Shown: positions 36,985 through 43,789 of the stretch, one piece after another | Numbering within the stretch: the first letter of the stretch is position 1 | How the letters are laid out: each line of letters opens with the position of its first letter | Assembly (NCBI GenBank): GCA_025965975.1 | Contig: JAOPVX010000188.1 | Coordinates: 1-64,000, forward strand | Direction of reading: 5' to 3' | Length of the DNA stretch: 64,000 nucleotides | From: Mycobacterium sp. | GTDB lineage: Bacteria > Actinomycetota > Actinomycetes > Mycobacteriales > Mycobacteriaceae | Notes under the pieces: model-generated | What the model was told of the DNA's origin: nothing | Seen by the model: only the letters and a program-made list of their open reading frames with translations | The model's database searches: none | Program-made: the position numbers and the translations under genes

Positions 36985-38367
36985 TCAGTCCTCGTCGTCG
37001 GGTGGGTCGGTGTCGCCGCGGAGGAGTTCTTCGGGGTGGTGCGCGTGGTTGATTTCGGGTGGTTGGGTGCCGTCGGTCCAGGCGAGGCGGCCGGTATCGG
37101 TGACGATGGTTTGTCGGTGGCCCTTGGTGACGAGGTCGTGATCGGGGGCGCAGGCGAAGAACAGTTTGTCGGCATCGGTGGCGCCGTTCGGTGACCAGTC
37201 CGGGCTGTGATGGACCTCGCAGTGGTAGCCAGGCTCAAGGCAATTCGGATGCGTGCAGCCGCCGTCGCGGGAATAGCAGATGATGCGTTGGTCAGTAGTG
37301 GCGATGCGGTTTTGGCGGCCCAGGTAGATGGGTCGTTCGCTGTGGTCGTCGAACACCGCCAGGTAGTGGATACCGTCGACGCCCATCCGGAGCAGATCTC
37401 GCATCGGAAGCGCGGTGTCACCGCCGGTGCGCGCCGGCGGAGGCATCGGGATGTCCGGATTGGCGACAGCATGGGCGGCCTGGTTGAGTTCGGCGAGCGT
37501 GGTGCGCACGATCACGGTGACCGGGTGGCCGCGGTGCTGGCCCATCGCACCCGAGGCGATCCCGGCCTTCAGTCCGAGCTTGATGCCGTCGTGGCAGCGC
37601 TGGGCCGCGCTGCGCTCATCACGCACCTCGGCCACCGTGCCGTCGGGCAGGTGCCTGCCGGGACGGACGGCCGCGGTGACCGCCTCCACATAGCAGCGAG
37701 TTTCCGGGTCGATCCATCCCGACAGCCGCGACATGCCGTCCGGTCCCTGCTGCCCGAGCTGTAATCCGCGGCGGCGGGCCCGGTCGGCTTCGTCGTAGTG
37801 GCCGTCGGGGTTGAAGATGTCGTCGATGTGCCTGCCGACGGCCTTGACGATCTCGACGTCATTCTTGGTGGCTTCTCGCACCAGGCTGCGCTCAACATCT
37901 TCGCGATCGACGGCCGATACGCACGAGGGCAGCACGTCGATGGCGCGGCAGATAGCGCGCAGGTGATCCTCGCCGATGGTGCCGGCTTCGAGGGCCTGTG
38001 CCACTCGGGGCAGCTCGGGTGCCAGCGGTGGACCGGTGAGTTGGCGCCGCGGCCGGATGCGACCGGCCACCTTTATGCGGCGTTTGATCTCCCTTGGCGG
38101 GATACGCAATCGCGCGCACAGTTTGCCGGCCAGTACGGGCACGTACTCGACCTCATCGGGTGGGTCGGCGATCTCGCCGAACACCCGATACATCAGTCCG
38201 CGGTTGGTGCGCTCCTGGGTCTCCAGGTGCTCGGCCATCTGGACCCGAAACTCGTTGCCCACCCCGTCAGAGGACAGGGACCGCATTTCGTCGTGGGCGG
38301 CGTCAACCTGGCCCAGCAGCTCGCGAAACCGCTCGCGCGCCGTTTCTCCGGTGACGAATTGGCCCAT
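36985..38367 (-). CDS. 13E12-repeat family (DUF222) HNH endonuclease protein
   Basis: A 460-residue member of the mycobacterial REP13E12 family. The long N-terminal DUF222 domain (about residues 10-340) is followed by an HNH motif near 380-425: CTHPNCLEPGYHCEVHHSPDWSPNGATDADKLFFACAPDH, which has the zinc cysteines and catalytic histidines. These genes are multi-copy and can serve as phage or plasmid integration sites; no att repeat was found here. No frameshift is visible, so it may be functional. It is flanked by unrelated genes with no other mobility functions. Confidence 0.92.
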   Translation of the reverse strand: MGQFVTGETARERFRELLGQVDAAHDEMRSLSSDGVGNEFRVQMAEHLETQERTNRGLMYRVFGEIADPPDEVEYVPVLAGKLCARLRIPPREIKRRIKVAGRIRPRRQLTGPPLAPELPRVAQALEAGTIGEDHLRAICRAIDVLPSCVSAVDREDVERSLVREATKNDVEIVKAVGRHIDDIFNPDGHYDEADRARRRGLQLGQQGPDGMSRLSGWIDPETRCYVEAVTAAVRPGRHLPDGTVAEVRDERSAAQRCHDGIKLGLKAGIASGAMGQHRGHPVTVIVRTTLAELNQAAHAVANPDIPMPPPARTGGDTALPMRDLLRMGVDGIHYLAVFDDHSERPIYLGRQNRIATTDQRIICYSRDGGCTHPNCLEPGYHCEVHHSPDWSPNGATDADKLFFACAPDHDLVTKGHRQTIVTDTGRLAWTDGTQPPEINHAHHPEELLRGDTDPPDDED

Positions 38368-38532: not shown

Positions 38533-40506
38533 TCAGGACGAGGTGGGCTCGTGACTAGCGGCGATGCCGGCCAGGCTCCTCGTGATCGTGTCGACCTCGG
38601 TGACGAGCACCCGCGCCGCCGCGTTGTCGGCGGCAAGCCGTGCCCCTTGCTCGCGCACCTGCTGACTCGCCGCGATCAACTCGTCGACGTCGACGGTCCA
38701 CGGCGTGGCCGCGCTCGGCGGTGCGCCTCGCAACGCGTCGACGTAATCATCTAGGGCGGCGACGAATTCGGGCGTCAGCGCCGTCGACGGTTCGCTGGAC
38801 AGGGTGCTTTCCAGAGAGGTGCATGCGCTGGTGACGGCGTTCAGCGCCGCTCGATACGACCGCAGCCACCGACGCAGCTCACGCGAATCCGCCCGTGTCG
38901 CGCCGGATGCCGCTTCAAACGCCGCGCGAGCCCGGAACGCTCGCTGCCACGCCGCCGACAACGCTTCGGCCGGGTGATCGAGTTCATGCGCGAACGCCTT
39001 GACGACCGCTGCCGCGTAGTCGATTTCGGACTTCAGCAGTTCGCCGGCGCGCTGGCGGAGCCGAATCAACCCGTGATCGGGCAGCACGACATGGGCCACC
39101 ACCGCCAGGCCGCCGCCGATGACCACCGCGAACAACACGTCTTCGATGGCCGGACCTGTCGCCGCGGCGTCGATGTCGAGCAGGAACACGATGGTCGCGG
39201 CCAACGCCGCAGTCATCGCGAGATATCCGACCCTTGCGACTCCGTACGTCACCGCAAGAAACACCACCGCCGCGAGGGCCGCCGAGGAACCCGTCGGCTG
39301 CCACACCAAAGTCAGCGCCGACGCGACCACGATCCCGGCGGCGGTGCCCGCCACCCGTCCGACGCAGCGGGTGTAGGTGTGTGCCGTCTCGGGGCGCAGC
39401 ACCATCAGCACGGTCAACGCGATCCAGTGGCCGTGTGCGACGCCACCGAACCGGTCCGCAGCCACTCCCAACGCGGTGGCCGACGACAGCCGGACGGCGT
39501 GGCGCAGCACCGGCGACGTCCACGTCAGGTGGCCACGCACCACGCCGGCGGCCGCGAGCAGCGAGCCGATCAGGTCGGGGCGACGGAATTCACCGAACCG
39601 CGAGGCGGAGGCCTCGTGAAGTTGTTGTGAAAACCGTTGCGCGCCTGCCGCTTGCGGCCCTGTCACCGCGGCCGCCGCGACATCGACGCGGGCGAGCGCG
39701 TATTCGGCGTCGCGCCGCGCGGTGTGGTTGTGCTTCGCGATCGCGTCCAGGAAATCCGCGGCAGGGGACAGCACCTGCGAAACCCCGTCATCGCCATCGC
39801 GCATGGCGCCCAGTGTCGCGGTGATCCGCTCGGGCAGCCGGTAGCCGCCGTGATACGCCAGCGGGCGTCGGGTCGCCTCGCTGTCGACGAACGCTTCCCG
39901 CAGCGACGTAAGCGGGGCGGTGCCCACCGCGGCCTGACGGTCGGCTGCGACACGGCGAGCGTCCGCGGCCAGTCCACGGTAGGTGCGCGTCAGCGCGGCG
40001 CGCTGCTCCCGCCAGCGCTGAGGCGGCCATACCGCGATCAGCGCCGCCTGAACGCAACCGGCGGCCACGGTCAAAAGCGTCGAGGACACCACCGCGGACA
40101 GCGAAGGGGCAACCGGCGGCGAGATCACCAGCAGCGCAGCGGTGGCGGCCGCGACCAGGCCCGGTTTGCTGCCCAGCGCCCACTGCATACCTGCCGCGAA
40201 GCACCACACCGCGACGACGGCGATGAACACCACCTTGTGGGACGCGGTCAACGCGCCGAGAAGTACGACGGCGCCCAGTTGCAGCGACACCACCACGACA
40301 AGGGGCACCCGTCCTGCGGGACTGTCCTGCATGGCGATCGAGCCAGCGATCGCCGCCGCCCCTGCTGCCCACACCGCAGCCGACGGAGAACTCGACGCCA
40401 GCGCGGCCGCCACCATCGCAAGCACTCCGAGCAGGCTGCGCGATACCGCGCCGACGTCGGGCGTGGTCACGCGCAGTGCGTCGATCACCCGGCCGCCCGT
40501 GGTCAC
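38533..40506 (-). CDS. FUSC-family membrane protein
   Basis: A 657-residue protein with two blocks of transmembrane helices (about residues 20-165 and 340-475), each followed by a helical cytoplasmic domain, the layout of the FUSC/aromatic acid exporter family. The second block contains HWIALTVLMVLRPETAHTYTRCVGRVAGTAAGI, the family signature. These proteins may export aromatic acids or other anions. It is monocistronic; the 165-base gap upstream of the HNH gene end has no recognised feature. Confidence 0.87.
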   Translation of the reverse strand: MTTGGRVIDALRVTTPDVGAVSRSLLGVLAMVAAALASSSPSAAVWAAGAAAIAGSIAMQDSPAGRVPLVVVVSLQLGAVVLLGALTASHKVVFIAVVAVWCFAAGMQWALGSKPGLVAAATAALLVISPPVAPSLSAVVSSTLLTVAAGCVQAALIAVWPPQRWREQRAALTRTYRGLAADARRVAADRQAAVGTAPLTSLREAFVDSEATRRPLAYHGGYRLPERITATLGAMRDGDDGVSQVLSPAADFLDAIAKHNHTARRDAEYALARVDVAAAAVTGPQAAGAQRFSQQLHEASASRFGEFRRPDLIGSLLAAAGVVRGHLTWTSPVLRHAVRLSSATALGVAADRFGGVAHGHWIALTVLMVLRPETAHTYTRCVGRVAGTAAGIVVASALTLVWQPTGSSAALAAVVFLAVTYGVARVGYLAMTAALAATIVFLLDIDAAATGPAIEDVLFAVVIGGGLAVVAHVVLPDHGLIRLRQRAGELLKSEIDYAAAVVKAFAHELDHPAEALSAAWQRAFRARAAFEAASGATRADSRELRRWLRSYRAALNAVTSACTSLESTLSSEPSTALTPEFVAALDDYVDALRGAPPSAATPWTVDVDELIAASQQVREQGARLAADNAAARVLVTEVDTITRSLAGIAASHEPTSS

Positions 40507-41111
40507 CTGCCTATTCTGACTCCATCAAGGTCACCGAAGGGTGCAGTACACGCGCCAAATCCCGGCCGGATGTCCGAGCGTCTCGACAGTGGCGAGGCAA
40601 GCCCAGCAGATGGCGTCCGTTGTACCTGCACTCGTGAATGTGTCTGTCGGCGCCAAAAAACTGAGCTCGCGCGTTGAAACGGATCGGCCCGGGCCAGGAA
40701 CTGCGAAGCGGCCGGAATGGGCTCATTTCGCCTGCTGCTGGAACCAGCAAACGCTGCAGGACCGCATCTTTGCATCGCACGTGCAGTACGAGCCGATTTG
40801 ACGCCAGAGGGATATCTGCGATGGAAATTGCGCAGCAGTCAAATGCTTTGCGGCACAGCACATACCCCTCGGCATCGTCCTTCACGCGACAGATTTCGGT
40901 GAAGATTTCGATCGGCCTCCGTTTTGACTTCATGAAGCGGGTTGTCGGAGGTACGGTCAGCTAACCGGATCAGATGAGCAACCGTGGAGGTGCCGATCCC
41001 ATGGATTTCGCCTCATGAGGTCCTGGCCGCGTTTTGCGAGGCGTTGCGCCGAGTCTTACCACCGATAACGCCTCACCTGCTCAAAATGTCCGAATACCGA
41101 ACGGAGCTTTC
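40507..41111. other. Gene-poor stretch before the thiocyanate hydrolase operon
   Basis: About 600 bases with no convincing gene: overlapping short frames on both strands lack a recognisable domain, and codon bias is weaker than in its neighbours. A perfect 10-bp palindrome CCTCATGAGG is at 41011-41020, about 90 bases before the first operon gene, and could be an operator. The promoter of the thiocyanate hydrolase genes must lie in this stretch. It may also hold a remnant of older coding sequence. Confidence 0.5.
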
Positions 41112-41948
41112 ATGAGTACGGCCGCCGAGCGTGCTGCGCAATTGGACCTCGTAGCCCGACTCAAGTCCGCATATCCCGAGCTTCCCGATGCACCGACTCC
41201 TGATCTGCTTGACCACGAGCGCATCACCGCCTACCTCAAGCCCGTCCACGACGTGGGCGGTGAGCCGGATGCGCCGATGAAGTATGAGGACAAGCAGTAC
41301 GAGCTCTGGGAGCACATGACCTATGTGATCTGCGAGGTCCTCGCGTGGCGCGGCATCTGGTTGTCGGAGGAGCGTCGCCGGATCGGCAACGTCGACGTCG
41401 GTCGGGCGCAGTATTTGGGGCTGCCGTACTACGGCCGCTGGCTCCTGGCCGTCGCCCGTGTCCTCGTTGAGAAACACCACATCGGCCTGACTGAGTTGAG
41501 CGAACGGATGGCCGAGGTCAAGGCGCGCTACGGGGGCGGTCTTGCCGGAAAGAAGTTGGACGCCACGCCGAAGTCCCAAGGCGACGGGTCGCAGGTCAAA
41601 CGCAACGAGCACCACAAGCGCGCGGTGGGCGAGGGCGATCCGCAGGTGTATGCCGGTCAGGCCGGGCAGCCGAAGTTCAAGGTCGGCGACGCCGTGGTAG
41701 TACGCGAACTGCCGGTGATCTTTTACACCCGCACCCCGGAGTACGTGCGCGGCGCGAAAGGCGAAATCGCAGCGGTCGCGTACGAAAGCCCGGCCGCTGA
41801 GGACGAGACCTGGGACCGTCCCGCGACGCCGGAATGGTTCTACGTCGTTCGGTTCAACATGTGCGAGTTGTGGTACGGCTACACCGGAACCACCGATGAC
41901 GTCGTCCAAACCGAAATTCCCGAACACTGGCTGCAAGCCGCCCCCTAA
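41112..41948 (+). CDS. Thiocyanate hydrolase beta-alpha fusion subunit (nitrile hydratase beta-like)
   Basis: A 278-residue protein, ATG preceded by ggag. Its first half (about residues 30-150; MKYEDKQYELWEH, VLAWRGIWLSEERRR, YLGLPYYGRWLLAVARVLVEK) corresponds to the beta subunit of Thiobacillus thioparus thiocyanate hydrolase, and its second half (about 180-278; FKVGDAVVVRELPVIFYTRT, RGAKGEIAAVAYESPAAEDE, EIPEHWL) to the alpha subunit. In that enzyme these are separate proteins; here they are joined by a linker of about 30 residues. The enzyme hydrolyses thiocyanate to carbonyl sulfide and ammonia. The gamma-like gene follows 30 bases later. A nitrile hydratase acting on other substrates is an alternative. 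Confidence 0.85.
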   Translation: MSTAAERAAQLDLVARLKSAYPELPDAPTPDLLDHERITAYLKPVHDVGGEPDAPMKYEDKQYELWEHMTYVICEVLAWRGIWLSEERRRIGNVDVGRAQYLGLPYYGRWLLAVARVLVEKHHIGLTELSERMAEVKARYGGGLAGKKLDATPKSQGDGSQVKRNEHHKRAVGEGDPQVYAGQAGQPKFKVGDAVVVRELPVIFYTRTPEYVRGAKGEIAAVAYESPAAEDETWDRPATPEWFYVVRFNMCELWYGYTGTTDDVVQTEIPEHWLQAAP

Positions 41949-41978
41949 ACCAGCTTCGGTGTCCAGAAAGGAATTCGC

Positions 41979-42698
41979 ATGACCGACCATGGTCACGATC
42001 ACGATCACGATCACGATCGCACCGTTAAGCCGATGGTCGACGAGATCACCGACTTCGAAGTCCTCGAGATCGCGCTGCGTGAGCTATGCATCGAGAAGGG
42101 AATCTTCACCGCCGAGGAGCACCGCCGCTTCACCGAATTCGCCGAACAGATCGGCCCGACGCCCGCGGCGCACTTGGTCGCCAAGGCGTGGCTGGACCCC
42201 GAGTTCAAGAAGCTTGCTCTGACCGAACCGATGACGGCCAGCAAGGAGGTCGGTGTCGACTGGATGGAACCGACGGGGTTCGGCACACCCAGCGACTTCA
42301 CCGCGTTCCAGATTCTCGCTAACACGCCAACGGTGCACAACGTGATCGTGTGTGCGTTGTGCTCGTGCTATCCGCGACCGATCCTCGGCAATTCGCCCGA
42401 GTGGTACCGCACGCCCAACTATCGCCGACGCTTGGTCCGTTGGCCACGCCAGGTGCTCGTCGAATTCGGGCTCTACTTGCCCGACAAGATCTCCGTCCAC
42501 GTGCAGGATTCCAACCAGAAGCATCGCTTCATGGTGATGCCTTTGCGGCCTGAGGGCACGCAGGACTGGACCGAAGCACAGCTGGTGGAAATCATCACGC
42601 GTGACTGCCTGATCGGTGTGGCATTGCCGAAGGCCGGCGTCACCACCAACGTGATCACAGATACCCGTCCTGCCGTCCATCCATGGACCGCGGGATGA
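41979..42698 (+). CDS. scnC: Thiocyanate hydrolase gamma subunit-like metal-binding protein
   Basis: A 239-residue protein homologous to nitrile hydratase alpha and closest, from memory, to thiocyanate hydrolase gamma: it has the His-Asp N-terminal run (residues 4-13), the FGTPSDF segment, NSPEWYRTPNYRRRLVRWPRQVLVEFGLYLP and the TRDCLIGVA tail. The metal-binding motif is CALCSC at residues 125-130, followed by YPRPILG. The usual second residue of this motif is threonine (cobalt) or serine (iron), so alanine is unusual. The three cysteines that bind the metal are intact. It lies between the fused subunit and the activator gene. Confidence 0.87.
   Translation: MTDHGHDHDHDHDRTVKPMVDEITDFEVLEIALRELCIEKGIFTAEEHRRFTEFAEQIGPTPAAHLVAKAWLDPEFKKLALTEPMTASKEVGVDWMEPTGFGTPSDFTAFQILANTPTVHNVIVCALCSCYPRPILGNSPEWYRTPNYRRRLVRWPRQVLVEFGLYLPDKISVHVQDSNQKHRFMVMPLRPEGTQDWTEAQLVEIITRDCLIGVALPKAGVTTNVITDTRPAVHPWTAG
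41994..42019 (+). repeat. CACGAT short tandem repeat in the gamma-subunit gene
   Basis: The 6-base unit CACGAT is repeated about four times at the start of the gamma-like gene and encodes alternating histidine and aspartate. Such a tract can change length by slippage without shifting frame. The same His-Asp run is known from the Thiobacillus gamma subunit. Confidence 0.75.
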
Positions 42699-43066
42699 GC
42701 GCTGCGGGGGATCCGGGTTTGACCGAGCACGTCGACATCGACGCCCTGAAGCAGATCGTGCACCGCGATCAGACCTGGCCGCGGATGGCCGCCAAGTACG
42801 GCGTCGAAAACCCCGTGCCGCCATGGAAGACGAGTCTGGACGGCCTCTGCGACGCGCTCGACCAGGCCAGCTGCGATGCGAACGTGCCCAATTTCAAGGA
42901 GCGCCGTGACGAGGAAGACACGCTGTCGGCAACCCTCTACTCGGGCCTGCCCTACCCGGAGAATCAGCTGGTCTCGCTGGCCCACTCGCTGGTCGCTCGC
43001 GGCATCATCGACGAGGCAGCGCTGAAACGACGGCTCGCCAGTATCCGCGAGAGGCTCGAAGCATAG
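42695..43066 (+). CDS. P15K-like activator / nitrile hydratase beta N-terminal-like protein
   Basis: About 123 residues (14 kDa) from the ATG overlapping the gamma stop by ATGA; an ATG at 42683 would add four residues. It has helices RDQTWPRMAAKYGVENPVPPWKTSLDGLCDAL and YPENQLVSLAHSLVARGIIDEAALKRRLASIRERL, the latter like the nitrile hydratase beta N-terminal bundle. The size and place match P15K, the protein that helps load cobalt into thiocyanate hydrolase, and nitrile hydratase activators. It lacks the CxCC-type metal motif seen in some activators, so the assignment relies on context. Confidence 0.7.
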   Translation: MSAAGDPGLTEHVDIDALKQIVHRDQTWPRMAAKYGVENPVPPWKTSLDGLCDALDQASCDANVPNFKERRDEEDTLSATLYSGLPYPENQLVSLAHSLVARGIIDEAALKRRLASIRERLEA

Positions 43067-43075
43067 ATTCAGATC

Positions 43076-43789
43076 GTGGAAAAGGTCATCATCACCCTCA
43101 GGGCGGCCGATGCGGATGAGAGGTGGTGCACCCGACTCCGCCTCCAAGTCGCGGCCGACCTACTCGAAACCGGCGCGCCCGGGCTCGCGGTCAATGTGCG
43201 CGACGACGCGGTGCGGGAATCACTGATGACGCTGACGACGCTGGATCCACCGGTAGTCGGGTTCGTCACGTTGTGGACGCAGCAGTCCTATGGCGATCAG
43301 GTGCGCTCCGCGATAACGCGGTTGGAAGAGGAGTGCGACGACGTGGCGGCCTACCTGGTGACCGAATCGGTGCCACTGCCGCCACCGATCACCGCTCCTG
43401 GCGAGCGCAGCCCTGGGTTGGCGAACGTCGCGCTGCTTCGCCGGCCCGGCGACCTCGACGCCGCGACATGGCGGCAGCGCTGGCACATCGACCACACCCC
43501 CGTCGCCATCGAGACGCAGTCGACATTCGGGTACACGCAGAATGCGGTGGTACACCCGCTGACGCCATGGGCGCCCGTCATCAACGCGATCGTCGAGGAA
43601 CTCTTCCCGATCGAGGCGACATCGGATCTGCAGGTGTTCTTCGGTGCCGCAGACGACGACGATCTGCGTGACCGGATGGAGCGCATGGTGGCCAGCACCG
43701 CTGCATTCGGTGCAAATCGCGACGTGGACACGGTGCCGACGAGTCGCTACGTGCTCCGGACGCCGTTCGTTGGAAGGGGACACGAATGA
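43076..43789 (+). CDS. EthD-domain protein
   Basis: A 237-residue protein with a GTG start. The C-terminal half matches the dimeric alpha-beta-barrel/EthD pattern: LRRPGDLDAATWRQRWHIDHTPVAIETQSTFGYTQNAVVHPLTPWAP, with the WRQRWHIDHTPVAI motif. EthD proteins occur in catabolic operons and their activity is unclear. It is 9 bases after the activator gene and overlaps the next gene by ATGA, so it could be part of the thiocyanate operon or belong to the Rv1875-like pair. Confidence 0.82.
   Translation: MEKVIITLRAADADERWCTRLRLQVAADLLETGAPGLAVNVRDDAVRESLMTLTTLDPPVVGFVTLWTQQSYGDQVRSAITRLEEECDDVAAYLVTESVPLPPPITAPGERSPGLANVALLRRPGDLDAATWRQRWHIDHTPVAIETQSTFGYTQNAVVHPLTPWAPVINAIVEELFPIEATSDLQVFFGAADDDDLRDRMERMVASTAAFGANRDVDTVPTSRYVLRTPFVGRGHE

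Follow-up and report, generated by a model that had tools for sequence, protein, structure and literature searches.

Thiocyanate hydrolase (SCNase) of Thiobacillus thioparus, represented by entries 2dd4 (our reference structure) and 2zzd, belongs to the nitrile hydratase (NHase) superfamily and is assembled from separate beta, alpha and gamma polypeptides, whose genes we take to stand in the order scnB-scnA-scnC. Cobalt NHases of the same superfamily have two chains, beta and alpha, and a beta-like activator, P14K. In extracts from a review the Thiobacillus enzyme is written as alpha-beta-gamma, with an activator gene after gamma (PMC7193024). The window, by which we mean the whole analysed stretch of 64,000 nucleotides from Mycobacterium sp. 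(contig JAOPVX010000188.1), carries a three-gene unit that very probably encodes an SCNase of this superfamily in a two-chain variant, its activity being predicted from sequence. The locus resembles that of T. thioparus in having all three domains, the CxLCSC-YPR and EERRR motifs, the His/Asp N-terminus of gamma and an activator-type gene behind it; it differs in that beta and alpha, separate there, form one polypeptide. The genes of the unit are:

41112..41948, forward strand: fused scnB-scnA (beta plus alpha) gene of the SCNase, 278 residues, with a beta domain at about 9-144, a linker at 145-163, an alpha domain at 164-276 and EERRR at 86-90
41979..42698, forward strand: scnC (gamma) subunit gene, 239 residues, with CALCSCYPR at residues 125-133 and a His/Asp-rich N-terminus
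42695..43066, forward strand: P15K-like accessory gene, a relative of the beta N-domain, 123 residues from the ATG at 42695

The fusion of beta and alpha is real, the two sharing one open reading frame (ORF) in place of the separate polypeptides of the Thiobacillus type. The fused gene and the gamma gene lie 30 nucleotides (nt) apart, each preceded by a purine-rich ribosome-binding site, and at the ATGA of 42695-42698 the P15K-like start overlaps the scnC stop by 4 nt, which confirms the ORFs and short spacing given in a preliminary description of this DNA. An upstream ATG at 42683 would lengthen the accessory protein to 127 residues; the ATG at 42695 is the probable start.

Assignment and role of the enzyme

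When searched against the PDB with phmmer, residues 9-144 of the fused chain matched SCNase beta (2dd4_B, E 1.8e-40) and residues 164-276 matched SCNase alpha (2dd4_A, E 2.5e-31), which bears out the earlier reading of the 278-residue protein as a beta-type followed by an alpha-type stretch; the top NHase beta match of the same chain reached only E 3.7e-11. For the gamma protein, 2dd4_C gave E 2.4e-106 and the top NHase alpha 1.6e-52. At 379.4 bits this protein also clears the cut-off of TIGR03887, the curated model for SCNase gamma (291.45), so that the protein first singled out for its CALCSC motif and His/Asp N-terminus is a true SCNase gamma by that standard, and it falls inside the SCNase clade of an 84-row gamma tree with support of 100/100. 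Sequence, curated cut-offs, active-site motifs and tree together support the SCNase identity.

At the active site the cysteines of CALCSCYPR align with 2dd4_C positions 128, 131 and 133 and the arginine with 136, numbering being taken from the alignment; entry 3vyg carries Trp at gamma position 136. EERRR at 86-90 of the fused chain aligns with beta-chain positions 88-92. Both the YPR ending and EERRR are kept in all 138 SCNase loci compared (109 fused and 29 split, representing 119 distinct gamma stretches, with the window itself counted four times). We take CALCSC to be the Co(III) centre with oxidised cysteines, as in the solved enzyme, and the EERRR arginines to sit by the metal site. The three-gene unit most likely encodes an enzyme that converts thiocyanate to carbonyl sulfide and ammonia, and the sequence data point to an assembly of two chains, the fused chain and gamma. 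The preliminary description called such an enzyme simplified, which holds against Thiobacillus; set against an ordinary two-chain NHase, the layout is the same.

Some observations weigh against this assignment. The preliminary description had proposed modelling the fused chain on the solved complex, and this succeeded for the alpha half; the N-terminal, beta half gave a poor model, with a mean predicted local distance difference test (pLDDT) score of 64.0 and with residues 46-63, 143-169 and 171-175 below 50. For the C-terminal half, NHase beta chains lie only about 1 Z below SCNase alpha. The arginine of CYPR is not diagnostic, since it also occurs in 16 three-chain enzymes that score below the SCNase cut-off.

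These 16 NHase-like enzymes (L088-L094, L096, L097, L100, L102-L104, L110, L117 and L118), which have separate beta halves and CTLCSCYPR and fall under the SCNase gamma cut-off, may act on substrates other than ordinary nitriles. With about 73.5 bits, the alpha chains of two of them, L117 and L118, exceed the cut-off of the NHLP leader-peptide model TIGR03793. The window's gamma (41979-42695) lies just under it at 49.1 against 50.9 bits, and also matches a TOMM peptide model weakly; a likeness of gamma and alpha chains to TIGR03793 is expected from the known origin of NHLP and TOMM leaders.

It is highly improbable that the locus encodes an ordinary cobalt NHase for organic nitriles in which the beta subunit is unusual. 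Such an enzyme would share the superfamily, the identical two-chain layout and a beta-like activator with the window's proteins, whose Pfam names are those of NHase families. However, gamma falls below the NHase alpha equivalog cut-off (201.1 against 249.85 bits) and the fused chain below that for NHase beta (83.4 against 152.2 bits) where the SCNase cut-off is passed, and in the PDB search the E-values of the SCNase chains are better by many orders of magnitude. Placement inside the SCNase clade, apart from that of the NHases, also argues against an NHase, as does Arg in place of Trp after CYP; Trp is found in the compared NHases and in the three further genes of NHase-alpha type that this genome carries. 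Ordinary NHases as closest homologues, the outcome named beforehand as refuting, did not emerge, SCNase chains being closest in the PDB. If the enzyme is an SCNase, its main service might still be to detoxify thiocyanate, or thiocyanate derived from cyanide, and not to supply nitrogen. Thiocyanate is toxic, the reaction removes it, and SCNase is widespread in the genus. We nevertheless regard detoxification as the main role as rather unlikely, because nitrogen limitation induces genes that bear the SCNase name in M. smegmatis: in excerpts of one paper, MSMEG_6266 and MSMEG_6267 (SCNase beta and gamma) rise 3.68- and 3.42-fold and are listed beside a cyanate hydratase and amidases (PMC4617892). 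Another paper describes a rise of about 2.4-fold for the same pair when nitrate is given to a PII mutant (PMC11001197). These published expression data lend indirect support to a nitrogen-supply role, and by analogy with M. smegmatis the SCNase probably serves in nitrogen scavenging.

By comparison with the solved enzyme, gamma would hold Co(III) in CALCSC with oxidised cysteines, and the fused chain would close the active site, replacing the separate T. thioparus beta and alpha chains, beta arginines included. The P15K-like protein would probably bind gamma, aid cobalt insertion and pass gamma on to the fused chain. A beta-N-like protein is what we presume a P14K- or P15K-type activator to look like. 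Alone, the window's protein matches 2dd4_B marginally (E 0.12) and, at 17.2 bits, stays under the 21.5 bits that Pfam sets as cut-off; an 18-member profile of such proteins matches 2dd4_B at E 1.3e-6, and 17 of the 18 members touch the NHase_beta_N model at E <=1 (best 1.6e-5). A relative of the beta N-domain is encoded beside gamma in the window, and among the 138 SCNase loci compared, 136 have a P15K-like match on the downstream side of gamma. Against this role, Foldseek gave no significant fold match for the P15K-like model (pLDDT 69.5), the top match being an NHase beta at E 1.5. On the sequence evidence the protein is probably a cobalt-loading chaperone. Parts of a paper on an engineered NHase likewise inform the expected look of such activators; in that enzyme beta is joined to the metal-bearing alpha, which makes subunit swapping unlikely, and the activator is still required (PMC4709657). 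In the mycobacterial enzyme a swap would still be possible, because the fusion joins the two halves of an NHase-beta-like partner and gamma stays free. The fused SCNase also offers a natural case in which to study how chaperones of the P15K type function when beta is joined to alpha.

The ammonia released from thiocyanate would be used under nitrogen shortage, and the carbonyl sulfide might be hydrolysed by an Rv1284-type beta-carbonic anhydrase of the same genome (E 6.1e-86), which sequence similarity makes a candidate consumer. A soil isolate, Mycobacterium sp. THI401, breaks down carbonyl sulfide, as stated in an excerpt (PMC7308577). Several results weigh against this physiology. The top match of the carbonic anhydrase is a carbonic anhydrase, with carbonyl sulfide hydrolase sixth (E 2.2e-36). 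GlnR-like sites, for which excerpts of a paper give the consensus Gn2AC-n6-GnAAC, AC-n9-AC (PMC3662644), are not enriched in the 300 base pairs (bp) preceding fused genes, when 87 distinct stretches of this kind are compared with 50 single-base shuffles: AC-n9-AC occurs in 73 of 87 against 73.6, and stricter forms in 19 against 16.8 and, for the strictest, 7 against 5.9. The M. smegmatis SCNase genes go unmentioned in the main text of the GlnR regulon paper. Direct control by GlnR, considered as a regulatory link, was set aside, sites standing at shuffle level upstream of the 87 homologues. One GlnR-like sequence, GGTACGGTCAGCTAAC, is placed 162 bp ahead of the fused gene in the window and has a one-base variant in the nearest relative (L035); other matches of the same form are unlike GGTACGGTCAGCTAAC.

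Our impression from the literature is that SCNase is mostly discussed for sulfur-oxidising specialists, and the two-chain form is present in about two thirds of sampled genomes of this genus. As a simpler enzyme it may suit structural work and bioremediation, and mycobacterial SCNase may release carbonyl sulfide in soils as a source that has been overlooked.

Distribution and origin of the fused chain

The preliminary description placed the fused operon in a mycobacterium; it is present there, and it is not one strain's oddity. Of 297 genomes sampled from the genus, 204 encode a gamma above the SCNase cut-off; the phylum sample of 296 genomes contains 5 that do, all from the window's own family (G000 included). 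At a stricter E of 1e-75, gamma was found in 35 of the 98 genomes searched from another genus of the family, in 9 of the 19 from a gammaproteobacterial order and, among 398 Pseudomonadota, in the centre genome alone. No SCNase was confirmed in virus contigs. The proposed survey of other genomes for the same gene order found the layout recurring across the genus: the fused chain as query matched 132 of 198 genus genomes, in 128 of them near full length in a single frame (counted by hand; three are shorter, at 240, 260 and 253 residues). This recurrence of gene order and single frame is beyond chance. The other four comprise one split SCNase of a different lineage (G170), one gene broken in the assembly (G119) and two partial copies (G029 and G046). 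Since the scan of named genomes was queried with the fused chain, split SCNases are under-sampled in it, and for the other genus of the family only the best-scoring loci were examined, so that its 3 fused and 18 split loci among 21 are not a random sample. The partial and broken copies (G029, G046 and G119, the last as L186) suggest loss in some lineages.

The fused SCNase is thus common in mycobacteria, and close relatives already bear the enzyme's name in databases. Both M. smegmatis papers use this name for MSMEG_6266 and MSMEG_6267 (PMC4617892, PMC11001197), whose locus tags are consecutive. Such an annotation with two genes and no alpha fits a fused beta and alpha gene, homology and fusion in that species being judged from the names. 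In the open-access literature that was searched, we found no description of a fused beta-alpha SCNase, nor of the two-chain form as a fusion. Joined chains of the superfamily are described in excerpts on beta-alpha fused NHases of Monosiga and other eukaryotes and on the engineered P. putida NHase (PMC4709657, PMC7193024). These join beta with the metal-bearing alpha, whereas the metal subunit of the mycobacterial enzyme stays separate.

Split genes overlap. In the gammaproteobacterial order (9 genomes) the first 8 nt of scnA lie within scnB; at 19 actinobacterial loci, including one in Mycobacterium (L019, the split SCNase of G170), scnB and scnA overlap by 4 nt as ATGA or GTGA. Fusion is seen throughout the mycobacterial clade, at three loci from the neighbouring genus (L085, L087 and L147) and on two plasmids, one from Azospirillum ramasamyi and one from Roseomonas marmotae. 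The plasmid forms resemble the window's in having one chain for beta and alpha with gamma and a P15K-like gene downstream, and differ in their identity of about 40%, a longer and unlike linker and a separate place in the gamma tree. There the fused chain is annotated 'SH3-like domain-containing protein' and is followed by scnC. CbtB- and CbtA-like genes come after scnC in Roseomonas and a HupE/UreJ family gene in Azospirillum, and a TauE/SafE family gene lies near both loci (L115, 2118-6644; L116, 4808-8765); gene names here hint at linked metal uptake and sulfur export.

The mycobacterial fused clade (99/93) and the Thiobacillus-type split clade (98/88) are distinct sister groups in the gamma tree, jointly supported at 100/91. 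The two plasmid forms (98/94) lie outside this pair, and the actinobacterial split clade (98/79) branches outside all other SCNases. The top trees, for gamma and for beta plus alpha, need two changes between fused and split states. A tree uniting all fused forms is not rejected by the approximately unbiased (AU) test (p-AU 0.302 for gamma; 0.429 for beta plus alpha, from which L010, L140, L097, L100 and L088 were left out because their cut point was not found, and whose tree is poorly resolved), and two origins of the fusion are for that reason not claimed. The same values leave room for an ancestral fused state shared with NHase beta, itself a single chain, from which the Thiobacillus-type enzymes split later. 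We consider this unlikely: the nearest outgroups and first-branching SCNases are split in the gamma tree, and the Azospirillum and Roseomonas linkers are unlike the mycobacterial one. At 19 residues, the mycobacterial linker is also close in length to the two chain tails that stay unaligned in the Thiobacillus proteins, taken together (about 22 residues, judged by where the alignments end), a length in keeping with a junction of two genes. A bolder proposal, possible if doubtful, is that the two-chain layout was regained at least twice, in Mycobacteriaceae and Rhodospirillales, in each case through fusion of an scnB and an scnA gene that overlapped, and that the mycobacterial enzyme is a genus-wide nitrogen scavenger whose carbonyl sulfide is consumed in the cell by beta-carbonic anhydrase. 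If true, soil mycobacteria would be hidden sources and also sinks of carbonyl sulfide.

Genomic neighbourhood of the operon

The operon is flanked in the window by two genes that probably stand outside the enzyme and are usually each other's neighbours:

38533..40506, reverse strand: FUSC-family membrane protein gene, divergent from the SCNase operon
43076..43789, forward strand: EthD-like gene (weak Pfam match, E 0.086), starting 9 nt past the P15K-like gene

The FUSC gene was found in 88 of the 198 genomes searched, and FUSC and EthD lie close on one contig in at least 77; of the 88, 10 have no EthD among the matches listed and one has EthD on another contig. The gap between the two genes, among the matches listed, measures 22-282 bp in 56 of the 77 genomes and 1993-2569 bp in 21. 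All 21 long gaps, read by hand, contain an SCNase operon, which in 20 is fused and directed towards EthD. The remaining gap, that of G170 (L187), holds a split SCNase of a distant actinobacterial lineage in the opposite orientation. The presence of fused and split operons in the same gap means that this slot (window 40506-43076) took up two unlike SCNase operons; it may be a permissive site, or reflect replacement in place or a functional link. FUSC and EthD were also considered as parts of the pathway and rejected, being adjacent without an SCNase in 56 of 77 genomes (among the matches listed).

Beside the FUSC gene, a 460-residue protein encoded at window positions 36985-38367 on the reverse strand has no NCBIfam match and resembles the mycobacterial 13E12 repeat proteins. 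Such a gene may point to local mobility. A 64% match to this protein stands at the start of L035.
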